Positions 3,961 through 13,664 of a DNA stretch of 41,642 nucleotides are shown piece after piece (position 1 is the stretch's first letter; each line of letters opens with the position of its first letter). The notes beneath the pieces were generated by a model. The model saw only the letters and a program-made list of their open reading frames with translations. It ran no database searches and was not told the DNA's origin. The DNA is from Cypionkella sp. (GTDB lineage Bacteria; Pseudomonadota; Alphaproteobacteria; Rhodobacterales; Rhodobacteraceae), in NCBI RefSeq assembly GCF_030652235.1, contig NZ_JAUSBA010000073.1, positions 1 through 41,642 of the forward strand, written 5' to 3'. A program made the translations under genes and the position numbers.

Positions 3961-4676
3961 TGGGTCAGAAGGTCAATCCGATCGGCATGCGTCTTCAGGT
4001 CAACCGCACCTGGGATAGCCGCTGGTTCGCTGAATCGAAAGACTACGGCAACCTGCTGCTTGAAGACCTCAAAATGCGCGCGTTTGTGCATGAAGAGTGT
4101 AAGCAAGCTGGCATCAGCCGCGTGATCATCGAGCGTCCGCACAAAAAGTGCCGTGTGACCATTCACACCGCACGTCCGGGCGTGATCATCGGCAAAAAAG
4201 GCGCCGATATCGAAACCCTGCGCAAGAAACTGGCGGCATTCACCAAGTCGGATGTTCACCTGAACATCGTCGAAGTGCGCAAGCCGGAAGTCGACGCGCA
4301 ACTCGTCGCGGAATCGATCGCACAGCAAATGGAGCGCCGGGTGTCCTTCCGTCGCGCCATGAAGCGTGGCGTGCAGAACGCGATGCGGATGGGTGCCCTC
4401 GGCATCCGTGTGAACGTTGGTGGCCGTCTTGGCGGCGCCGAGATCGCGCGGACCGAATGGTATCGTGAAGGCCGTGTGCCGTTGCACACCCTGCGCGCTG
4501 ACATCGACTATGCTCTGTCCGAAGCCACGACTGCCTATGGCATCATCGGGGTGAAGGTCTGGATCTTCAAAGGCGAAATCCTTGAGCATGATCCGCAAGC
4601 CCATGATCGCCGTCTTGCCGAAGCGCAAGAAGGTGCAGCACCGCGTTCGCCTCGCCGCGACCGCGAACGCGCGTAA
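3960..4676 (+). CDS. rpsC: 30S ribosomal protein S3
   Basis: 238-residue S3, part of the mRNA entry pore with helicase activity. It starts [20 protein letters not shown]. The KH domain carries [18 protein letters not shown] at about residues 72-89. The C-terminal domain has [20 protein letters not shown]. The tail after residue 210 is Ala/Arg-rich. It overlaps rplV by 1 nt and precedes rplP by 12 nt. Confidence 0.97.
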
Positions 4677-4688
4677 GGGAGAACACAG

Positions 4689-5102
4689 ATGTTGCAACCA
4701 AAACGGACTAAGTTCCGCAAGCAGCACAAAGGCCGTATCCACGGCGAAGCGAAGGGCGGCTTTTTGCTGAACTTCGGCTCCTTTGCGCTGAAAGCCACCG
4801 AGCCAGAGCGTGTGACGGCCCGCCAGATCGAAGCGGCCCGCCGCGCGATCACCCGCCACATGAAACGCCAAGGCCGCGTCTGGATCCGGATTTTCCCGGA
4901 TGTTCCGGTCTCGTCCAAGCCTACCGAAGTGCGGATGGGTAAAGGTAAAGGCTCGACCGACTATTGGGCAGCCAAGGTCAAACCGGGCCGCATCATGTTC
5001 GAGATCGACGGCGTGTCCGAGATCATCGCCCGTGAAGCCCTGCGTCTGGGTGCGATGAAACTTCCGGTCACCACCCGCGTCGTGGCACGCGAAGACTGGT
5101 AA
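4689..5102 (+). CDS. rplP: 50S ribosomal protein L16
   Basis: 137-residue L16, which helps position tRNA in the A site. Typical segments are [20 protein letters not shown] at the start, RPWIRIFPD-like sequence (here [17 protein letters not shown]) and [20 protein letters not shown] near residues 80-99. The Arg hydroxylated by RoxA in E. coli lies in this last region. It is the last gene before the first accessory interruption; two hairpins follow within 112 nt. Confidence 0.97.
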
Positions 5103-5128
5103 GGTTTTTGCGCTAAGGCGCAAAAACC
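5103..5128 (+). terminator. Hairpin directly after rplP
   Basis: The arms 5103-5113 and 5118-5128 form 11 perfect base pairs around the loop TAAG, starting at the base after the rplP stop. The stem contains A-T runs on both arms, but no free T-run follows it. Confidence 0.6.
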
Positions 5129-5183
5129 AGTGCGGTGTAGCGGGTTTCCTCGGAAACGCGCGGGCCGTCACCCGGTTCAGAAT

Positions 5184-5213
5184 AAAACCCCCGCTGGAAA
5201 CAGCGGGGGTTTT
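5184..5213 (+). terminator. Strong bidirectional intrinsic terminator after rplP
   Basis: A 13-bp perfect stem (5184-5196 with 5201-5213) has a G-C core flanked by AAAA and TTTT and is closed by a GAAA tetraloop. This is the best intrinsic terminator in the first half of the ribosomal cluster. It should end the tuf/S10 transcript before brnT, which implies that downstream ribosomal genes need another promoter. Confidence 0.85.
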
Positions 5214-5241
5214 GCTTTTGGGGCAGGGGACTTCTCCAGCC

Positions 5242-5270
5242 TTGAAAAAGGATAATTTCTATACCATATT
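5242..5270 (+). promoter_or_regulatory. Candidate promoter of brnT, possibly leaderless
   Basis: TTGAAA (5242-5247) and CATATT (5265-5270) are separated by exactly 17 nt and fit a housekeeping sigma-70-type promoter. The start of transcription would fall at or next to the brnT ATG (5276). No Shine-Dalgarno sequence precedes that ATG, so a leaderless brnT message is plausible. BrnA proteins repress their own operons; no clear operator palindrome is visible here. Confidence 0.5.
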
Positions 5271-5275
5271 GCCTC

Positions 5276-5539
5276 ATGGAGTTTGAATATGACCGCGCCA
5301 AAAGCGCCTCCAATCTGGCCAAACACGGAATAGACTTCGTTGCAGCGCAGTCCTTGTGGCAGGACGAACGTTTGCTGCAAGCAGCGGCCACGACGAAAGA
5401 TGAAGCGCGCTTCTTTGCGATTGGTCGAATTGGCGAAAAGCACTGGACCGCGATCTGCACGCACCGGGGTGAAGCGGTGCGGATCATCTCGGTTCGAAGG
5501 GCGCGGAAAGAGGAGATTGGTTACTATGAAAGCACATGA
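5276..5539 (+). CDS. brnT: BrnT-type ribonuclease toxin of a type II toxin-antitoxin pair
   Basis: 87 residues. BrnT proteins are RelE-fold ribonucleases that block translation until bound by BrnA. The N-terminus MEFEYDRAKSASNLAKHGID is the family hallmark (F-x-D-xx-K-xx-N-xx-KHGI), and the C-terminal half carries RIISVRRARKEE, also typical. The gene starts 6 nt after a promoter -10 box and has no visible ribosome site. Its last 14 nt overlap brnA, as is usual for this pair. It lies inside the ribosomal protein cluster, between rplP and rpmC. Activity is not shown by sequence alone. Confidence 0.88.
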   Translation: MEFEYDRAKSASNLAKHGIDFVAAQSLWQDERLLQAAATTKDEARFFAIGRIGEKHWTAICTHRGEAVRIISVRRARKEEIGYYEST

Positions 5540-5741
5540 GTTGGACGAGAAATTCGACGCGGGCGAAGACATCAGCGCCCATATCGACTGGTCCAAAGCC
5601 CGCCGCCCCAATCAAGAGCCGCGCCGCGTAAACGTGGACTTCCCGGCTTGGGTGGTTGATGGCCTTGACCGCGAGGCCCGCCATCTGGGTGTTACCCGGC
5701 AATCGGTGATCAAGATGTGGATTGCTGAGAAGTTGCGGTGA
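5526..5741 (+). CDS. brnA: BrnA-type antitoxin
   Basis: 71 residues, starting MKAHELDEKFDAGEDISAHI. The C-terminal half VNVDFPAWVVDGLDREARHL followed by GVTRQSVIKMWIAEKL is the ribbon-helix-helix DNA-binding region of BrnA antitoxins, which neutralise BrnT and repress the operon. The ATG at 5526 lies inside the end of brnT (14-nt overlap). A longer in-frame reading from 5340 was rejected because it is only the shadow of brnT. A 25-nt gap separates it from the next small gene, so the three may be cotranscribed. Confidence 0.87.
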   Translation: MKAHELDEKFDAGEDISAHIDWSKARRPNQEPRRVNVDFPAWVVDGLDREARHLGVTRQSVIKMWIAEKLR

Positions 5742-5766
5742 GCCGTGGCGCGCAAATGGGATCAGC

Positions 5767-6099
5767 ATGCTAGTTCCCTTCGTCTTGGTGGCCGCAATCT
5801 TTGCCTTTCAATGCCATAGCAGGCTGTCGAAATGGATGTTTCTCGGCTTGGCCCTGATGTTGCTAGCGGTTGAAGTTGCTGGTGCCTGTTGGATGTTGAT
5901 TCAGCTTCCTGGTTGCAGCGGGAACGTCCTCAATGGAATTTACTGCCCCCCTACAGTTCAAGCGTCACGCTCATACCGCATCGCACAGTTCGCGGCGTGG
6001 GTGTGGGTCAATGGTATGATGAAGGCTGTTGTGATCGGTATCCCGCTTGGCATTTTGGCTGTTTTCATTGAGTTCCGTTCAAGACTGGTGCGGCAATAG
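5767..6099 (+). CDS. Small membrane protein of unknown function
   Basis: 110 residues if the ATG at 5767 is used, which has GGGA at 5758-5761. An upstream in-frame start at 5722 would overlap brnA and add 15 non-hydrophobic residues. I do not recognise the family. Three hydrophobic stretches are visible: about residues 2-15 (VPFVLVAAIFAF), 23-45 (WMFLGLALMLLAVEVAGACW) and 77-102 (MMKAVVIGIPLGILAVFI). Several Cys lie in the middle loop (LPGCSGNVLNGIYCPP), which could form a disulfide if periplasmic. It follows brnA closely and may be passenger cargo of the same insertion. A non-coding chance ORF is possible but less likely given the hydrophobic pattern. Confidence 0.6.
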   Translation: MLVPFVLVAAIFAFQCHSRLSKWMFLGLALMLLAVEVAGACWMLIQLPGCSGNVLNGIYCPPTVQASRSYRIAQFAAWVWVNGMMKAVVIGIPLGILAVFIEFRSRLVRQ

Positions 6100-6127
6100 C
6101 CTGCGCGCCTTTTCCTCCACAAACCGC

Positions 6128-6156
6128 TTGCCCTATCCCCCCCCATCCCCTATACG
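6128..6156 (+). promoter_or_regulatory. Candidate promoter for the rpmC-rpmD gene group
   Basis: TTGCCC (6128-6133), a 17-nt spacer, then TATACG (6151-6156). It sits just after the accessory genes and before rpmC, where a promoter would be needed because of the strong terminator at 5184-5213. A near-identical layout (TTGATC, 17 nt, TATACG) occurs at 11569-11597 before rplO. Expected RNA start is about 6163, giving a leader of about 110 nt. Confidence 0.55.
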
Positions 6157-6170
6157 CAGCCATCCACGGC

Positions 6171-6238
6171 TCCGAGGCGACTCGGAATCGGTGGTTTTAC
6201 ATTGATCCACCGGGTTCAGCGTGACCTTGCCGCAAGGT
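6171..6238 (+). promoter_or_regulatory. Two-hairpin leader upstream of rpmC
   Basis: First hairpin: 6 bp (6171-6176 with 6181-6186) closed by a GCGA tetraloop, with an outer CCAC/GTGG pairing (6164-6167 with 6191-6194) and a TTTT run right after. Second hairpin: 6 bp (6224-6229 with 6233-6238) around CCG. They occupy most of the predicted rpmC leader and could act in attenuation or in ribosomal-protein autoregulation; this role is inference. Confidence 0.4.
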
Positions 6239-6273
6239 AGGGGCGCTCTGGTGATTGAAAAAGGAACAGGCGC

Positions 6274-6477
6274 ATGACCGCCAAGGAACTATTGGGCAAA
6301 TCGCCCGAGCAGCTGCGTGAGAGCCTTGTGGCCCTCAAGAAAGAAGCGTTCAACCTGCGCTTCCAGGCAGCAACCAACCAGCTGGAAAACACCTCGCGTA
6401 TGCGCGCTGTTCGCCGCGAAGTGGCACGCATCATGACCGTGCTGAACCAGAAAGCCGCAACCGCGGCTGCGAACTGA
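6274..6477 (+). CDS. rpmC: 50S ribosomal protein L29
   Basis: 67-residue L29, a helical-hairpin protein at the tunnel exit beside L23. Visible features are the start [20 protein letters not shown] and the conserved [20 protein letters not shown] near residues 29-48. A purine-rich AAAAAGGA site precedes the ATG. In most bacteria it follows rplP within a few bases; here 1.17 kb of accessory DNA separates them. rpsQ follows after 12 nt. Confidence 0.96.
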
Positions 6478-6489
6478 GGAGTAGACACC

Positions 6490-6723
6490 ATGCCGAAACG
6501 TATCCTGCAAGGCGTCGTAACCTCGGACAAGAACGAGCAAACCATCACCGTTCTGGTGGAGCGCCGCTTCAAGCACCCGCTGTTTCACAAGACCATTCGT
6601 AAGTCTAAGAAATATCGCGCGCACGACGAGAACAACACCTACAAGACCGGGGATTCTGTCCGCATTGAAGAATGTGCACCGATCTCGAAGACCAAACGCT
6701 GGACGGTGGTCGTTGCTGCATAA
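6490..6723 (+). CDS. rpsQ: 30S ribosomal protein S17
   Basis: 77-residue S17, an early 16S rRNA-binding assembly protein with an OB fold. It begins [20 protein letters not shown] and contains [19 protein letters not shown] and [18 protein letters not shown], all family-typical. Normal length. A 69-nt gap to rplN holds no gene. Confidence 0.97.
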
Positions 6724-6792
6724 GCAACGACTTTCGTCTTTTTCTGAATACGAAACCCTGGGCAATGATGCCCAAAGGTCGGGAGAAACCAA

Positions 6793-7161
6793 ATGATCCA
6801 GATGCAGACCAATCTGGATGTTGCTGATAACTCCGGCGCTCGCCGGGTTCAGTGCATCAAGGTTCTGGGCGGCTCACACCGCCGCTATGCATCCGTGGGC
6901 GACATCATCGTGGTGTCGGTCAAGGAAGCCATTCCGAAAGGCCGTGTGAAAAAAGGCGACGTGCGTAAAGCCGTTGTTGTTCGCACCGCCAAAGAAGTTC
7001 GCCGTGAAGACGGCACCGCTATTCGTTTTGACCGCAACGCTGCTGTCATCCTGAACAATCAGGGTGAACCAGTCGGCACGCGTATCTTCGGGCCAGTGGT
7101 GCGTGAACTCCGCGCGAAGAACTTCATGAAAATCATCTCGCTGGCTCCGGAGGTGCTCTGA
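6793..7161 (+). CDS. rplN: 50S ribosomal protein L14
   Basis: 122-residue L14, forming intersubunit bridge B8 and the binding site for the silencing factor RsfS. It starts [20 protein letters not shown] and has the motif [20 protein letters not shown], with [11 protein letters not shown] near the C-terminus. The final A of its TGA is shared with the rplX start (1-nt overlap). Confidence 0.97.
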
Positions 7162-7466
7162 TGGCTGCGAAGCTTAAAAAGGGCGACACCGTCGTCATCT
7201 TGACCGGCAAGGACAAGGGCGCAAAGGGCGAGATTTCGTCTGTGAACCCGACCGCCAACAAGGCCATCGTCGATGGCGCCAATATGGCGATCCGTCACAC
7301 CAAGCAAAGCCAGACCTCGCAAGGCGGTCGCATCGCAAAGCCGATGCCGATTGATTTGTCGAATCTCGCATTGCTGGACAGCAAAGGCAAAGCAACCCGC
7401 GTTGGCTTCCGTATGGAAGGCGACAAGAAAGTGCGCTTCGCCAAGACCACTGGGGAGGCGATCTGA
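7161..7466 (+). CDS. rplX: 50S ribosomal protein L24
   Basis: 101-residue L24, an assembly-initiator protein. The KOW motif is visible as [20 protein letters not shown] (residues 5-24). The middle segment [20 protein letters not shown] and the end [20 protein letters not shown] fit the family. It overlaps both neighbours by one base, suggesting coupled translation from rplN through rplE. Confidence 0.97.
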
Positions 7467-8026
7467 TGCTCGACCAAGCCACCTACACGCCGCGTCTGAA
7501 GGCTGACTATAAGGCGCGCATCTGCGCAGCCCTTATGGAAGAGTTCGGCTACAAGAACGCGATGCAACTGCCCAAGCTCGACAAAATCGTGCTGAACATG
7601 GGCGTTGGTGAAGCCGTCAAGGACACCAAAAAGGTCAAGAAAGCCGCCGAAGAGATGACTCTCATCGCCGGTCAAAAGGCAGTCATCACTCATGCGAAAA
7701 ACAGCATTGCTGGTTTCCGTGTGCGGGAAGAAATGCCGCTTGGCTGTAAAGTGACCCTGCGCGGCGACCGGATGTACGAATTCCTCGACCGTCTGGTGAC
7801 CATTGCTTTGCCACGGGTTCGCGACTTCCGCGGGCTGAAGCCGACATCGTTCGATGGCCGTGGCAACTATGCTATGGGTCTGAAAGAGCAACTGGTGTTC
7901 CCCGAAATCGAATTCGACAAAGTCGATGAAGTGCTCGGCATGGACATCATCATCTGCACCACCGCTAAGACCGATGCGGAAGCGAAGGCACTGTTGAAGC
8001 AATTCAACATGCCCTTCACTTCTTGA
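7466..8026 (+). CDS. rplE: 50S ribosomal protein L5
   Basis: 186-residue L5, which binds 5S rRNA in the central protuberance. Typical segments are [40 protein letters not shown] and the C-terminal [19 protein letters not shown]. In E. coli, S8 represses the spc operon by binding the mRNA near the rplE start; I did not identify a matching structure here. Confidence 0.97.
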
Positions 8027-8045
8027 TCGCGCGAGGAACCTGACA

Positions 8046-8351
8046 ATGGCAAAAAAATCCATGGTGAACCGCGAAGTGAAGCGCGAGAAGCTGGTGAAGC
8101 AACATGCTTCCAAGCGCGCAGCACTGAAAGCGGTGATCAACGACCAAGCGAAACCGGTGGATGAGCGCTTCAAAGCGACCATCAAGCTGGCCGAGCTGCC
8201 CCGCAACTCGTCGGCTGTCCGTTTGCACAATCGTTGCCAACTGACCGGCCGTCCGCATGCGTATTATCGCAAGCTTAAACTCTCGCGCATCATGCTGCGT
8301 GATCTCGCCTCGTTCGGCCAGATCCCCGGCATGGTCAAGTCGAGCTGGTAA
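8046..8351 (+). CDS. rpsN: 30S ribosomal protein S14, long zinc-free form
   Basis: 101-residue S14. The length and the absence of the paired CxxC motifs place it in the long C-minus class rather than the short zinc-binding class. It starts [20 protein letters not shown]. The C-terminus has [20 protein letters not shown] and ends [12 protein letters not shown], the classic S14 tail. It lies 19 nt after rplE and 12 nt before rpsH. Confidence 0.97.
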
Positions 8352-8363
8352 GGAGGTCGCCAA

Positions 8364-8762
8364 ATGATGATGAACGATCCTATCGGCGACATGCTTACCC
8401 GTATCCGTAACGCGCAAATGCGTGGCAAATCGACAGTGTCGACCCCTGCCTCGAAACTGCGCGCCTGGGTGCTGGACGTGCTCGTAAGCGAAGGCTACAT
8501 CCGCGGTTTCGAGCGCGCCAAGACCGATAACGGTCAAGGCGAGCTGGTGATCAGCCTGAAGTACTTCGAAGGCGTGCCTGTGATCCGCGAAGTTAAGCGC
8601 GTGTCCAAGCCCGGCCGTCGTGTGTACATGTCGGTTAAGGAAATTCCGACCGTGCGTAACGGTCTCGGTATCTCCATCGTGTCCACGCCAAAAGGCGTGA
8701 TGTCAGATGCAAATGCGCGCGCAGCCAATGTTGGCGGCGAAGTGCTTTGCACCGTGTTCTGA
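8364..8762 (+). CDS. rpsH: 30S ribosomal protein S8
   Basis: 132-residue S8, a central-domain 16S rRNA binder and the spc-operon repressor in E. coli. It begins [20 protein letters not shown]. Three ATG codons in a row could serve; the first (8364) lies 7 nt after a full AGGAGG (8351-8356). The conserved C-terminal block [20 protein letters not shown] is intact. Confidence 0.97.
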
Positions 8763-8772
8763 GGAGGGTGGC

Positions 8773-9306
8773 ATGTCTCGTATCGGCAAAAAACCCGTAG
8801 AACTGATCAATGGCGTTTCGGCGTCCGTGTCAGGTCAAACCATCGAAGTGAAAGGTCCGAAAGGCACCCGCAGCTTCACCGCAACCGACGACGTGACGCT
8901 CACGATCGACGAAGGCAGCATCAAAGTGACCCCGCGTGGCACTTCGAAGCGCGCGCGTCAGCAGTGGGGCATGGCGCGGTCGATGGTTGAAAACCTCGTC
9001 ACTGGCGTCACCGCTGGTTTCAAGAAAGAGCTGGAAATTCAAGGCGTGGGTTACCGCGCTGCGATGAATGGCAACATCCTGAAACTGTCGCTTGGCTACA
9101 GCCATGAAGTCAACTTCGCCGTTCCAGACGGGGTCACCGTGACTTCGCCGAAGAACACCGAAATCATTGTGGAAGGCATTGACCAACAACTCGTTGGTCA
9201 GGTCGCTGCGAACATCCGCGAATGGCGCAAGCCCGAGCCCTACAAGGGCAAAGGCATCCGCTATAAGGGCGAGTTCGTGTTCCGCAAAGAAGGCAAGAAG
9301 AAGTAA
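8773..9306 (+). CDS. rplF: 50S ribosomal protein L6
   Basis: 177-residue L6, which supports the sarcin-ricin loop region. It starts [20 protein letters not shown] and has [20 protein letters not shown] and the C-terminal [20 protein letters not shown]. An in-frame start further upstream at 8707 lies inside rpsH and adds 22 unrelated residues. The ATG at 8773 with GAGGAGGG just before it was chosen. Confidence 0.97.
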
Positions 9307-9317
9307 GGGACACAATC

Positions 9318-9677
9318 ATGGCAAACACCAAGAGAGACCTGTTCCTCAAGCGCCGTCAGCGCGTTCGGAACAAAATCAAAGCGACATCGCATGGGCGCCT
9401 GCGCCTGTCGGTGCACCGCTCGAACAAAAACATCAGCGTGCAGCTGATCGACGATGTGAAGGGCGTCACCATCGCCTCCGCCTCCACGCTGGAGAAGGAA
9501 TTCGGTGTCGTCGGCAAGAACAACGTCCAAGCAGCGACGAAAATCGGTTCGGCAATCGCCGAGCGGGCCAAAAAGGCCGGTGTTGAAGTGTGCTACTTCG
9601 ACCGCGGCGGTTTCCTCTTTCACGGTAAGATCAAGGCTTTGGCCGAGGCTGCCCGTGAAGGTGGATTGCAGTTCTGA
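9318..9677 (+). CDS. rplR: 50S ribosomal protein L18
   Basis: 119-residue L18, a 5S rRNA-binding protein of the central protuberance. It contains [38 protein letters not shown] and the C-terminal [20 protein letters not shown] with EGGLQF at the end. Normal length, 11 nt from each neighbour. Confidence 0.97.
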
Positions 9678-9688
9678 GGAGTTGAAAA

Positions 9689-10267
9689 ATGGCAGAACGT
9701 GATAACCGTCGGGACAATCGTGGTGGCAATGATCGCCGCGATAACCGGCCGGAAGAAACCCCGGAATTCGCTGACCGCTTGGTCGCGATCAACCGGGTGT
9801 CGAAAACCGTGAAGGGCGGCAAACGCTTTGGCTTTGCAGCACTTGTGGTCGTCGGCGATCAAAAAGGCCGTGTCGGTTTCGGCAAGGGCAAGGCTAAGGA
9901 AGTTCCGGAAGCGATCCGCAAGGCGACCGAGCAGGCCAAGCGCCAGCTTATTCGCGTGCCGCTGAAAGACGCCCGCACCCTGCACCACGACATGGAAGGC
10001 CGTCATGGCGCCGGTAAAGTGGTGATGCGGACGGCTGTTGCCGGTACTGGCATCATCGCCGGTGGTCCGATGCGCGCTGTGTTTGAGATGTTGGGCCTGC
10101 AAGACGTGGTGGCAAAGTCCATCGGCTCGCAGAACCCCTACAACATGATCCGCGCCACCATCGACGGGCTGAAGTCGGAAACCTCTCCTCGTCAAGTCGC
10201 GGCACGCCGTGGCAAGAAAGTGGCAGAGATCCTGAACAAGCCCGCCGCTGAAGTTGTGGAGGCTTGA
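9689..10267 (+). CDS. rpsE: 30S ribosomal protein S5
   Basis: 192-residue S5, which acts in decoding accuracy and mRNA entry. The first 25 residues form a repetitive Arg/Asn/Asp-rich tail ([18 protein letters not shown]) that looks disordered and is longer than in E. coli. The core then shows [40 protein letters not shown] and [20 protein letters not shown]. Its TGA ends 2 nt before rpmD. Confidence 0.97.
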
Positions 10268-10269
10268 AC

Positions 10270-10470
10270 ATGACCGACGCTGTGAAAAAGACCATCGTGG
10301 TCAAGCAGGTGGCTTCGGCTGCCCGCCGCCCGGCCAAACAGACCGCGACCCTGAAAGGTCTTGGACTGAACAAAATGAACCGCACCCGCGAACTGGAAGA
10401 CACGCCTTCCATCCGTGGCATGGTCAACAAGATCTCGCATCTTGTGACGATCATCGAAGAGCGCGGTTAA
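10270..10470 (+). CDS. rpmD: 50S ribosomal protein L30
   Basis: 66-residue L30. The N-terminus [20 protein letters not shown] leads into the conserved [20 protein letters not shown] and ends with [19 protein letters not shown] at 10264 is in frame, but the ATG at 10270 sits 7 nt after GGAGG (10258-10262) and is preferred. A hairpin terminator follows 38 nt after the stop, and the next ribosomal gene is 1.2 kb away. Confidence 0.96.
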
Positions 10471-10508
10471 GCCAAGGAAACGGTGCGTGACATCACGCAC
10501 CCTACCAA

Positions 10509-10539
10509 AAAACGCCCCGCCGCAAGGTCGGGGCGTTTT
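10509..10539 (+). terminator. Intrinsic terminator after rpmD
   Basis: An 11-bp perfect stem (10509-10519 with 10529-10539) with A-run on the left and TTTT on the right surrounds a 9-nt loop. It can work in both directions, so it may end both the rpmC-rpmD transcript and the reverse-strand gene that stops at 10614. Confidence 0.8.
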
Positions 10540-10567
10540 GCATTTGCAACGCCGGGGATCATTGTAG

Positions 10568-10587
10568 GGTGCGTGCTCGCACGCACC
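10568..10587. repeat. Short palindromic element
   Basis: GGTGCGTGC and GCACGCACC (9 bp each) are separated by TC. From memory, near-identical short GC-rich palindromes recur between genes in Rhodobacteraceae genomes, so this may be a dispersed REP-like element. Only one copy is seen in this window. Confidence 0.4.
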
Positions 10588-10613
10588 GCTCACCAACGCA
10601 CCACCCCCAAACC

Positions 10614-11117
10614 CTACTGCGTAAACCGAAAAGCCTCACAAAACCGCACCAGCCGCGCATTACCCTTATCCTGCAAAGCCCAACCCCAAGCCTCATCCAA
10701 CACCACCTGAGCCGCCTCGATCCGCTCGCCGTCGCGCTCGCCATGCACCTTGGCATCGCCGTGGAACAGACTGCCCCGCACGTCCTGAACTACCAAAAAG
10801 AAATCCGAAACCGAATTCACCGCCCGCGCCTTTTTCCAAGACACCGCTTGATCCCGGTCCACCTTCAACAGCCGAGGCGGCGCGTTGAACAGCACCTGAA
10901 CCTCTGGCAACGCCCGGCAATGCGCCAGAAACCCATCGCCGAGATCGCCGGCAAACCCGGCCCAGCCCGCCTCGGCCGAAGTGCCGGGTTTTTCATATTT
11001 CAAATACCCCGCCAGCTTCAGCGCATATTCAAACCGCGCAAAGGTCGCGACCAAGCTGCCCCATTCATTCTTGAACAGCAGCTTAATCCCCGCCCGATAA
11101 TTGGTATCCACCGCCAT
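10614..11117 (-). CDS. HEPN-domain-like protein, probable ribonuclease-fold family
   Basis: 167 residues from the ATG at 11117, which follows a GGGGG ribosome-site candidate by 7 nt; a TTG 18 nt further upstream is less likely. The segment FARFEYALKLAGYLK near residues 26-40 and QDVRGSLFHGDAKV near 111-124 match the pattern of HEPN-like proteins, including R114-x4-H119 (RX4-6H), the catalytic signature of HEPN RNases. The more usual form is VRNNLFHGGK; here NN is replaced by GS. Many HEPN proteins are toxins or defence nucleases; no partner nucleotidyltransferase gene is next to it. It is encoded on the strand opposite to the ribosomal genes around it. Function is inference; family assignment is moderately confident. 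Confidence 0.65.
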   Translation of the reverse strand: MAVDTNYRAGIKLLFKNEWGSLVATFARFEYALKLAGYLKYEKPGTSAEAGWAGFAGDLGDGFLAHCRALPEVQVLFNAPPRLLKVDRDQAVSWKKARAVNSVSDFFLVVQDVRGSLFHGDAKVHGERDGERIEAAQVVLDEAWGWALQDKGNARLVRFCEAFRFTQ

Positions 11118-11251
11118 GTGATAGCCCCCGTGCAAAACAGCCCGCAGATACGCAGGATTTGCGGGGGGAGTCTATATTGACAATGTTTGCCGTTCAGCGA
11201 CTCCTCGTAGAAACCCAGCACACGGGTAGGTCGCAAACATTGGAAGCTGAA

Positions 11252-11572
11252 ATGCATTGGTATCTGAATTTGGCAAAGAGGCAGTTTGAATATGTGCTGC
11301 GCCTCCCTGCTATGGCACTGCCGATTTTCATCGTTTTGCAAATGTTCGCAGTATGCATCGCCGTCCTTTTGAGTATGGGAATTGCTAAGCTACTCTCTGC
11401 CAACGAAATGCTCATCATCATACCATTTTCTGTATTTTGGCTGCACACGCTGCCAGCCTATTGGCTGGCGATCATGCTCTTGGCGGAGAAACTTTGGATG
11501 ATGACCAGCCTATACCGAGTTCTCGGTGTCCCCGCGGATAGCATCCGTAACAGATACAGCAATAAGGCTTGA
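11252..11572 (+). CDS. Small membrane protein of unknown function, AT-richer than its surroundings
   Basis: 106 residues from the ATG at 11252, with GGAAG at 11242-11246. An earlier in-frame start at 11159 would add 31 residues of doubtful sense. Family not recognised. Two long hydrophobic segments are visible: about residues 18-48 ([20 protein letters not shown] and on) and 55-83 ([20 protein letters not shown]). The C-terminus is short and polar. Base composition and codon use are visibly more AT-rich than the ribosomal genes, which suggests recent acquisition. It is divergent from the HEPN-like gene, 134 nt apart. Confidence 0.55.
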
Positions 11573-11597
11573 TCGCGGGTCGCCTCCCCTCTATACG
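11569..11597 (+). promoter_or_regulatory. Candidate promoter for rplO-secY
   Basis: TTGATC (11569-11574), 17-nt spacer, TATACG (11592-11597), expected RNA start near 11604. It overlaps the end of the upstream small membrane gene. Its -10 and spacing match the element at 6128-6156, in the equivalent position after the other accessory insertion. Confidence 0.55.
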
Positions 11598-11691
11598 CCC
11601 GCAATGCCCCACCTATCGGCATAAGAATCAACAACAGCCGCGTTGCCCTCCCCGTCGCAGGGAGAAGCTTTCCGGCATAGGAGTATGCGAC

Positions 11692-12186
11692 ATGAAGTTG
11701 AATGAACTGCACGACAATCCGGGTGCAACCAAAAAGCAAAAGCGCGTGGCGCGTGGTCCGGGTTCGGGCTCGGGCAAGACCGCTGGTCGTGGTATCAAGG
11801 GTCAGAAATCGCGTTCGGGCGTCGCTATTGGCGGCTACGAAGGCGGCCAGATGCCTTTGTATCGCCGTCTGCCGAAGCGCGGCTTCAACAAGCCGAACCA
11901 AGATCGCTTTGCGGTGATCAACCTCGGCCTGATCGAGAAATTCATCGGTCTGGGCAAACTCGACGCGAAAGTTGAGATCACCGAGGATATGCTGGTTGAC
12001 GCGGGCCTCACCGGCCACAAGCGCGACGGCATCCGCATCCTGAACAAAGGTTCGATCACTTCGGCGGTCAAACTGAACGTCACCGGGGCCTCCGCAGCCG
12101 CTGTTGAAGCTGTTGTAGCCGCTGGCGGCACCCTGACCGTGGCGCCGACCTTGCCAGCTTTCACCAAAGCGGTCCGTAAAGCATAA
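11692..12186 (+). CDS. rplO: 50S ribosomal protein L15
   Basis: 164-residue L15, a late 50S assembly protein. It begins [20 protein letters not shown] and has the Gly/Arg-rich extension [39 protein letters not shown] and the C-terminal [14 protein letters not shown] reading frame open from 11569 is rejected because AGGAG at 11679-11683 and family homology both mark the ATG at 11692. In other species it follows rpmD directly. Confidence 0.97.
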
Positions 12187-12196
12187 CTAACGCCTT

Positions 12197-12268
12197 GTGA
12201 GCGGTTGCTAGACCGCTTACATCGGCTTATGTTTCCCGCGCCGCCGACCCGAAACGGTTTGGCGGCGC
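12197..12268 (+). promoter_or_regulatory. Two hairpins between rplO and secY
   Basis: First: 9 bp with one G-T pair (12197-12205 with 12212-12220), loop TGCTAG. Second: 8 bp all G-C (12238-12245 with 12261-12268), 15-nt loop that can pair further inside. Neither has a proper T-run. They fill the 116-nt gap and may tune secY relative to rplO. Confidence 0.5.
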
Positions 12269-12302
12269 TTCCCATATCGGGCTTACGCAGAAAGAACTGG
12301 GC

Positions 12303-13664
12303 ATGGCTTCAGCTGCCGAACAGATGGCCGCGAACCTCAGCTGGGGTACGCTAGGCAAGGCGACGGATCTCCGTAGCCGGATTTTCTTCACCATTGGCCT
12401 GCTCATGGTCTACCGTCTTGGCACTTATGTGCCGGTTCCGGGCATTGACGGCACGGCGTTGCGCAACTTCATGGATGACGCGGGGCAGGGCATTGGCGGT
12501 ATGCTGTCAATGTTCACCGGCGGCGCCATCAAGCGCATGGGCATCTTTGCCTTGGGGATTATGCCCTATATTTCCGCCTCGATCATCATTCAGCTGTTGG
12601 CGTCGATGATCCCGGCGCTGGAGCAGATGAAGAAAGAAGGCGACGCGGGCCGCAAGAAGATGAACCAGTGGACGCGCTACGGCACCGTCTGTCTGGCGAT
12701 CCTGCAAGGTTTCGGCATCGCCAAATCCATCGAAGCGGGTGGCCTTGCCCATACCCCCGGCATGTATTTCGTCGTCTCTTGCGTGATCACCCTGGTCGCG
12801 GGCACGATGTTTCTGATGTGGCTGGGTGAGCAGATCACCGCGCGCGGCATCGGCAACGGCACCTCGCTGATCATCTTTACAGGTATCGTCGCGGAAATCC
12901 CGCATGCTTTGGCGCAGTTCTTCAGCCAGGGCCGCGCAGGCGTGATCTCAACCCCGGTGATCCTTGGGGTTTTGGTGATGGTCGTCGCCGTTATCGCCTT
13001 TGTGGTGTTCATGGAACGCGCCCTGCGCAAGATCCACATCCAATACCCCCGCCGCCAAGTCGGTATGAAGGTCTATGATGGTGGGTCAAGCCATTTGCCG
13101 ATCAAGGTCAACCCGGCAGGCGTGATTCCGGCTATTTTCGCCTCGTCGCTTTTGCTGCTGCCAACCACGATTGCGACCTTCTCGGGTGAGAATACTGGGC
13201 CGATCATGTCGACGATCCTCGCGTATTTCGGGCATGGTCAGCCGCTCTATCTGTTGTTCTTTGTGTCGATGATCGTATTCTTCGCGTATTTCTACACCGC
13301 AAACGTCTCATTCAAGACCGACGAAGTGGCCGATAACCTGAAGAACCAGAATGGCTTCATCCCGGGTATTCGTCCGGGCAAAAAAACCGAGGAATATCTC
13401 GATTATGTCGTCAACCGCATCTTGGTGCTGGGGGCGGCCTATCTGGCCCTCGTCTGCTTGCTGCCCGAGATCCTGATCAGCCAGTTCTCGATTCCGTTCT
13501 ACTTCGGTGGCACCTCGGTGCTGATCGTGGTGTCGGTGACGATGGACACCATCAACCAGATCCAGTCGCATCTGCTGGCGCATCAATACGAAGGCCTGAT
13601 TGAGAAATCTCAGCTGCGCGGCAAAAAGCGCAGCACGGCCAACCGTCCGCCCGCGCGGCGTTGA
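12303..13664 (+). CDS. secY: Preprotein translocase channel subunit SecY
   Basis: 453 residues, the central pore of the SecYEG complex in the inner membrane, moving unfolded proteins out with SecA or co-translationally. Ten hydrophobic segments are expected, and many are visible, e.g. IFFTIGLLMVYRLGTYVPVP at 23-42 (TM1 and the following PVPGID) and GIFALGIMPYISASIIIQLL at about 80-99. The cytosolic loop with RKIHIQYPRRQVG near residue 240 and the C-terminal QSHLLAHQYEGLIEKSQLRG are typical. The start MASAAEQMAANLSWG agrees with relatives; the ribosome site is weak. A terminator-like hairpin lies between it and adk. Confidence 0.96.
   Translation: MASAAEQMAANLSWGTLGKATDLRSRIFFTIGLLMVYRLGTYVPVPGIDGTALRNFMDDAGQGIGGMLSMFTGGAIKRMGIFALGIMPYISASIIIQLLASMIPALEQMKKEGDAGRKKMNQWTRYGTVCLAILQGFGIAKSIEAGGLAHTPGMYFVVSCVITLVAGTMFLMWLGEQITARGIGNGTSLIIFTGIVAEIPHALAQFFSQGRAGVISTPVILGVLVMVVAVIAFVVFMERALRKIHIQYPRRQVGMKVYDGGSSHLPIKVNPAGVIPAIFASSLLLLPTTIATFSGENTGPIMSTILAYFGHGQPLYLLFFVSMIVFFAYFYTANVSFKTDEVADNLKNQNGFIPGIRPGKKTEEYLDYVVNRILVLGAAYLALVCLLPEILISQFSIPFYFGGTSVLIVVSVTMDTINQIQSHLLAHQYEGLIEKSQLRGKKRSTANRPPARR

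Follow-up and report, generated by a model that had tools for sequence, protein, structure and literature searches.

Organization of the rpmD-rplO interval

The window, a stretch of 41,642 nucleotides from Cypionkella sp. (contig NZ_JAUSBA010000073.1), carries a ribosomal protein gene cluster in which rpmD (L30; 10270..10470, forward strand; Pfam PF00327, E 5e-20) and rplO (L15; 11692..12186, forward strand; PF00828, E 2e-14) are separated by additional DNA. rpmD appears to close an upstream transcription unit and rplO to open a downstream one. The left edge of the interval is marked by a terminator hairpin at 10509..10539. This hairpin is a perfect 11-bp inverted repeat (10509-10519/10529-10539) with a 9-base loop, and could be used on both strands given the A run before it and the T run after it. 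It is unlisted on the forward strand in the terminator scan, whose limit the 9-base loop exceeds; similar hairpins lie 3' of rpmD in all 13 aligned rows listed. Two palindrome copies (GGTGCGTG..CACGCACC, 10481..10588), which we take to be REP-like, are located on both sides of the terminator, and similar copies occur near the same place in some relatives. In an Rfam scan of 4500-13000 every match fell under the gathering score and none touched the rplO leader; a mir-4018 match inside the slot (10555-10603) was taken as chance.

A reverse-strand ORF (10614..11117, ATG at 11117) encodes a HEPN-like protein of 167 residues (P0001). It is preceded on its own strand by a conserved block of 57 b (11118..11174), which shares 93-98% identity with three relatives (G298, G302 and G247) and 95% over 41 b with G300. 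This block is probably the promoter and translation start region of the HEPN-like gene. A strain-specific insert (11175..11567) extends from the 5' block to the rplO promoter and leader. At E<=1, the corresponding interval of 10 relatives contained nothing similar to it, and the window's own copies were the sole matches to 11176-11566 in the loci compared.

This region holds an orphan forward-strand membrane ORF of 129 aa (11183..11572); its product has two hydrophobic segments, one strong and the other weaker. Its stretch has 48-50% GC compared with about 58-62% around it, and an ORF of this length appeared in 7 of 1000 shuffles. No relative was found in the 294 other genomes of 295 in the family, in plasmids or in viral contigs, nor in the loci of 18 relatives, most of which carry the HEPN-like gene. 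Pfam, NCBIfam and PADLOC (the last at E<=10) gave no match. This ORF is possibly a real gene, yet it belongs to no conserved system and was rejected as a conserved partner of its neighbour.

The right edge of the interval is the rplO promoter (TTGATC-17-TATACG, 11569..11597, forward strand), whose -35 element, starting at 11569, overlaps the stop of the membrane ORF. Its score of 8 out of 12 lies under the scan threshold of 9. Of the 13 aligned rows, 12 retain TATA[C/T]G, the exception being G303, which has no slot. The promoter is followed by a structured leader RNA (11622..11694) that runs into rplO. A preliminary description of this DNA had proposed the reverse-strand RX4H protein, the divergent and AT-richer small membrane protein, the terminator and the promoter, and all four are borne out at the positions given here, the membrane ORF less strongly than the HEPN-like gene.

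The rpmD-rplO gap is an insertion slot in Rhodobacteraceae

The gap between the two genes was surveyed in 78 of 93 family genomes, in which both lie on one contig and strand (one genome per genus except G000 and G247). Fifteen genomes were excluded, 12 with the genes on different contigs, possibly through assembly breaks, and 3 with the genes on different strands. The sample was drawn from 150 rpmD rows and 93 rplO rows with a partner, and leans to well-matching genomes; the rplO places of G006, G007 and G229 come from separate searches, that of G229 being one base off. The median gap is 933 b. The gap reaches 400 b or more in 53 genomes and 1000 b or more in 37, and it is below 250 b in 16. 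Outside Rhodobacteraceae, the gap is 27-72 b in all eight other alphaproteobacterial families with a locus. The rplO-secY junction spans 35-219 b in all 30 loci of this comparison. In G034, G200 and G043, rpmD and rplO are on opposite strands, which splits the operon completely at this junction; each of the three retains the leader in front of rplO.

Terminator and promoter signals were scored in 76 of the 78 genomes (all except G000 and G247). Where the gap measures at least 300 b, 51 of 56 genomes have a terminator after rpmD, as do 5 of 9 at 150-300 b and 2 of 11 below 150 b; shuffled sequence yields terminators at 1-6%. A promoter of the form TTG-N16-18-TA precedes rplO in 53/56, 7/9 and 0/11 genomes of the same classes, with less sequence scannable in gaps below 150 b. 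The family promoter sits 119-133 b ahead of the first rplO base in the alignment and reads TATACG in 41 of 56 genomes; scores of at least 8 were obtained in 36 of 56, compared with 1.2 expected.

The cargo of the slot is diverse. Of 103 ORFs of at least 100 aa, 93 were scanned (the 10 ORFs of G196 were left out); these are longest-ORF calls, some of them spurious. Among the 25 listed of 53 Pfam families, GFA was matched by 6 ORFs and P450, RraB and VWA by 2 each, with aldehyde dehydrogenase, TctA, ectoine synthase, the Imm7 immunity protein and the Hint domain as singletons. The 25 listed of 50 PADLOC entries are mostly helicase, cyclase and PD-T4-3, judged by family names, and each listed family was matched by a single ORF. 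ORFs in the gaps of G295, G296 and G297 presumably also resemble GFA proteins. The gap is a general accessory-gene slot in Rhodobacteraceae, with a terminator at one edge and a fixed rplO promoter at the other. The preliminary description had suggested that the ribosomal operon is a recurrent niche for translation-targeting toxins or defence genes. The recurrent insertion holds, but a niche mainly for toxins was rejected: GFA is the commonest listed cargo (6 of 93 ORFs), followed by P450, RraB, VWA and various enzymes, and Imm7, Hint and PD-T4-3 are represented by one ORF each. Conflict genes land in the slot but do not dominate its listed cargo. The result listings of a literature search contained no paper on this slot.

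The HEPN-like protein

The protein contains the sequence V-R114-G-S-L-F-H119-G, an Rx4-6H motif (R114-GSLF-H119). In the family alignment A2, E30 is invariant and K34 nearly so, which supplies the acidic residue of helix 2 in an Ex3[KR] context. In the AlphaFold model (mean pLDDT 88.6, with a lower value of 62 around residues 121-130), R114 and H119 are predicted at the end of helix 103-119, followed by a loop (120-126) and a further helix (127-149), and E30xxxK34 lies within helix 17-35. The predicted placement of motif and acidic residue is that of HEPN domains, in which Rx4-6H stands at a helix end or loop start and an acidic residue in helix 2, according to the passages on these motifs in PMC3710099. 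A polar residue directly after the R is typical of HEPN but not strict. This residue is absent from the window's protein, which, with its closest relatives, has G115, compared with N in at least 90% of A2.

Profile comparisons did not give a significant match to HEPN families. The protein matched no family in Pfam, NCBIfam or PADLOC (PADLOC at E<=10). The HEPN_Apea profile matched 3 of 66 family rows with a best E of 0.03, the PADLOC CARF-HEPN/Csx1 models reached a best E of 0.005, counted as non-significant, and the PDB search gave 8y7f at a non-significant E of 0.036. Alignment with hhalign to small DUF4145 and Apea sets gave probabilities below 1%, yet placed the motif in register; stop-bearing rows had been dropped from these sets, some of those retained probably represent wrong-strand noise, and the Apea set had one usable row. 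A PDB profile search with alignment A1 returned the tag region of lignin peroxidase as top matches, which was judged a chance motif and rejected. In a second-look fold comparison, unrelated bundles ranked above Csm6 and IRE1. The family assignment is given here as HEPN-like because no profile or fold match to described HEPN families was significant.

Distribution, selection and motif loss in the slot

In 14 genomes (G000, G298, G300, G302, G247, G299, G297, G307, G295, G305, G155, L071, L072 and Maritimibacter) the gene is next to rpmD, rplO or both, always in one orientation, with both flanks visible in 10. The proteins of Cypionkella psychrotolerans and C. aquatica are 98% and 96% identical to that of the window. 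Within the genus, 10 of 15 genomes carry the gene, including the window's own and one broken copy, a presence beyond chance. Two lack it where the place could be judged, G296 with the slot kept and G303 without a slot, and the place is not visible in G301, G304 and G306. In the family, the gene was found in 5 of 295 genomes. Relatives hence do not all carry the gene here.

In the tree, 12 of the 13 full-length proteins from the slot group on a single branch (support 98/98). The Maritimibacter relative (G229/L075; also L063/L202) is 34% identical and has the same place and orientation beside rpmD; it may join the slot branch (support 46/91), and its position may reflect shared descent or a second arrival. 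In the compact arrangement of G307 and L071, the gene start is about 157 b from the rplO start, which suggests that the gene's 5' block overlaps the rplO promoter. In several species, unrelated DNA now separates the gene from this promoter.

Full-length frames are present in 13 of the 14 slot genomes, that of G305 being broken. RX4H is intact in eight full-length copies including the window's (G000, G298, G300, G302, G307, L071, L072 and G229), and R or H is replaced in the other five. R114 is replaced in four, by H in G247 and by Q in G299, G297 and G155, with an R one place further on in G297; H119 is replaced by Q in G295. These substitutions fall on at least three separate branches. Several genomes are drafts, in which single substitutions could be errors, but the change of R to Q is common to three genomes. 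The catalytic pair, altered in five of the 13 copies, has not been held by selection throughout the slot lineage.

Rates of substitution were compared for 14 chosen pairs of slot copies. Six pairs among the five closest species gave dN/dS values of 0.05-0.13. One of these six, G300-G247 (R kept and lost, respectively), gave 0.06. The value was 0.10 for G307-G295 (H kept and lost), 0.10 for G299-G155 (dS saturated) and 0.11 for G307-L072. Larger values were obtained for G000-G299 (0.20), G000-G297 (0.24) and G000-G307 (0.28), G000-L071 was not computable, and the maximum of 0.31 belongs to G299-G297, both of which lack R. Deep pairs other than G299-G297 span 0.10-0.28 with dS of at least 0.9, one being not computable. 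Constraint thus persists where the catalytic pair has changed, and is perhaps weaker in the G299/G297 group.

The wider family and its neighbours

Relatives of the HEPN-like protein are widespread and often lie next to defence genes. All 58 non-slot rows of A2 retain R and H; H was fixed by the scan pattern in this set and R allowed only as R or Q, so the contrast with the slot copies is partly built in. Of five plasmid copies opened, one adjoins Qat and SIR2 genes, a second has a BsuBI-type restriction system and DUF262 genes close by, and a third adjoins an abortive-infection gene. The fourth (L045) is on a 4.9-kb Citrobacter freundii plasmid with mob genes, CcdA/CcdB family genes and a replication gene, and the genes surrounding the fifth bear no defence label.

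The neighbour scan covered the first 80 of 128 ORFs, after 16 loci were dropped as slot copies, near-duplicates, or cut or short. Among the Pfam families listed (25 of 104) are Hypoth_Ymh (3), ResIII (3), SWI2_SNF2 (2) and HerA (2), together with ordinary enzymes; none is of MNT type. At E<=1e-5, 340 PADLOC families were matched by the 80 neighbour ORFs compared with 50 by the 93 cargo ORFs of the slot; family counts differ from protein counts, and the contrast is one of kind and gives no exact enrichment. The HEPN-like gene is a solo gene, since no neighbour cluster exceeds 4 loci. No MNT nucleotidyltransferase lies beside the window's copy, which is flanked by rpmD and the orphan membrane ORF without a Pfam match.

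A structured leader RNA before rplO

The 73 b through the rplO start codon (11622-11694) can form a helix P1 (GCCG/CGGC), a helix P2 and a pseudoknot that joins a loop to the bases ahead of the start codon. In 46 sequences, 93.9% of cells pair, compared with 80.8% after shuffling and 32-47% after sliding, and the covariation score is 0.342 compared with 0.100 shuffled and 0.034-0.082 slid. Compensatory changes are found at all five pairs of P2; P1 hardly varies and is little informative, and the pseudoknot columns are partly misaligned (85.8%). In an alignment-free scoring, the loop-start helix has a mean of 6.4 bp in 80 of 81 sequences (G008 is without an anchor, and one of the 80 is without a helix), compared with 5.6 bp for swapped partners (maximum 5.9 in 200 rounds) and 4.0 for shuffled loops. 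In G001 and G004, GTCGC/GCGAC is exchanged for GACGC/GCGTC in this helix.

The leader model R1 matched 39 of 48 sources, of which the window alone had been part of the training set and two genomes are counted twice, and missed all 8 outgroup loci as well as G008. R1 was found in 261 of 295 family genomes, and the 34 genomes without it include carriers of rplO such as G008, G014 and G017. Across the class, under stricter filters, it was found in 2 of 142 genomes, both Rhodobacteraceae. The R1 places that were listed and compared by eye end at the rplO start. The leader is also present in compact operons and is therefore independent of the slot. It has no Rfam match. A conserved covarying structure directly before a ribosomal protein gene, here with pairing to the start-codon region, is also the mark of r-leaders (PMC7247131). 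The passage of that paper around its Table 1 includes no bacterial L15/rplO leader (PMC7247131), and none appeared in the result listings of a literature search. The rplO leader is probably an undescribed ribosomal-protein autoregulatory leader, and as such would probably be a new control element for ribosomal-protein synthesis throughout a large family of bacteria.

Interpretation of the slot and its resident

The reading that we favour, at a little under an even chance for the whole, is that of a split operon slot with a retained HEPN-like resident of defence origin, whose RX4H site is no longer needed. In most Rhodobacteraceae surveyed, the spc operon would be split: one unit would stop at the terminator after rpmD, and a second would start at a promoter dedicated to rplO and carry a structured leader. 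The gap would collect unrelated genes because DNA inserted there disturbs neither transcription unit, which suggests an entry rule for foreign genes into a highly conserved operon, namely between a terminator and a dedicated promoter. A solo HEPN-like gene would have settled there, reversed, next to the rpmD terminator, in an ancestor that Cypionkella shares with its relatives, and we infer the gene's source to be a family that elsewhere often lies beside defence genes and on plasmids. Purifying selection has kept the gene since then. Its present function would not need RX4H, because orthologues that lost the motif remain constrained. The protein would most likely be a dimeric RNA-binding descendant of an RNase effector in which catalysis is optional; in the window's strain, R and H are retained and the polar residue after R is lost. 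Against this reading stand the non-significant HEPN homology and the fold comparison, in which Csm6 and IRE1 ranked below unrelated bundles.

Further points against it are that a lost R need not abolish cleavage, that 4 of the 5 altered copies keep H, and that the dN/dS of 0.31 for G299-G297 fits weaker constraint after loss of R. This highest value, in a pair that lost R, also fits an active HEPN ribonuclease for phage defence of the abortive-infection type, silent until infection and cutting RNA via R114/H119, in which case copies without R or H would be local losses where the enzyme was no longer needed. The intact pair in 8 of 13 slot copies and in all 58 non-slot rows agrees with such an enzyme, as do family neighbours that include restriction, SNF2/ResIII, HerA and candidate defence genes, and plasmid copies that adjoin Qat and SIR2, restriction-modification or abortive-infection genes. 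We nevertheless consider it the less likely account, a possibility of clearly lower weight: close pairs that differ in R or H stay constrained (0.06 and 0.10), no conserved partner, sensor or antitoxin accompanies the gene (the largest neighbour cluster has 4 loci), the listed cargo of the slot is not mainly defence genes, and G replaces the polar residue after R in the window's group. The absence of a partner also bears on the idea of a toxin from a two-part toxin-antitoxin module, with an unseen antitoxin (a small protein or RNA) nearby or the membrane ORF as partner. HEPN toxins of HEPN/MNT modules are known from passages in PMC3710099 and PMC7641770, and the membrane ORF adjoins the gene divergently, but that ORF is missing from 294 of 295 family genomes and from the loci of 18 relatives, the neighbour Pfam families listed (25 of 104) include none of MNT type, and no neighbour recurs in more than 4 loci. 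A module of this kind is improbable.

A decaying relic, that is, a former toxin gene trapped and drifting in a neutral slot, would account for active-site substitutions on three branches, for the broken copy and for the 0.31 of G299-G297. The values of 0.05-0.13 between the closest species and the full-length frames in 13 of 14 genomes argue otherwise, and we rate drift as a shade less probable still than a two-part module. A regulator of the ribosomal operon, acting for example on the rplO promoter or leader, is the least probable of the readings considered and has very little weight. The gene's 5' region meets the promoter and leader in the compact species (G307, L071), and HEPN folds can bind RNA without catalysis, as noted in part of PMC3710099; but the leader occurs in 261 of 295 family genomes and the gene in 5 of 295, and unrelated DNA lies between gene and promoter in several species. 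A combined version, in which a defence-type effector was domesticated as a catalysis-independent RNA binder and coupled to ribosome synthesis via its 5' region, which in compact species meets the rplO promoter and leader, is unlikely, though marginally less so than the two-part module.

Relation to known systems and the first insertion site

The favoured resident shares with the HEPN superfamily (HepT, Csm6/Csx1, Apea, Ymh, AbiF) the Rx4H at the end of a long helix and the start of the next loop, the Ex3K in an earlier helix, a long insert between Ex3K and Rx4H and the defence neighbourhoods of its wider family. It differs in being solo, with no MNT, CARF or other fusion, in the loss of R or H in 5 of 13 slot copies, in the G after R in the window's group, and in having no significant profile or fold match to described families. 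Retention of the domain after loss of Rx4-6H is likewise described for MtlR and other motif-less HEPN domains, which are thought to act by RNA binding, according to a passage in PMC3710099. No mannitol genes lie beside the window's copy, and kept and lost motifs occur side by side within one orthologous group of the slot. Slot orthologues with and without RX4H in one place would form a natural series on HEPN-type function without catalysis.

Another gap of the same ribosomal cluster likewise holds a small RNase-type gene. At 5276-5741, between rplP and rpmC, lie BrnT (PF04365, E 8e-24) and BrnA (NF047399, E 1.6e-38), a genuine toxin-antitoxin pair that differs from the HEPN-like gene in being a known two-gene system in forward direction. 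The preliminary description had placed candidate RNase genes at both sites; this stands for BrnT/BrnA, and in the rpmD-rplO gap the RX4H motif is present while the HEPN match is non-significant. BrnT/BrnA had no match in the loci of 18 relatives, five of which span the rplP-rpmC gap. This gap (5103-6273 in the window) is variable too, with 665-2014 b in five measurable genus genomes including the window, and 105 b in another genus.
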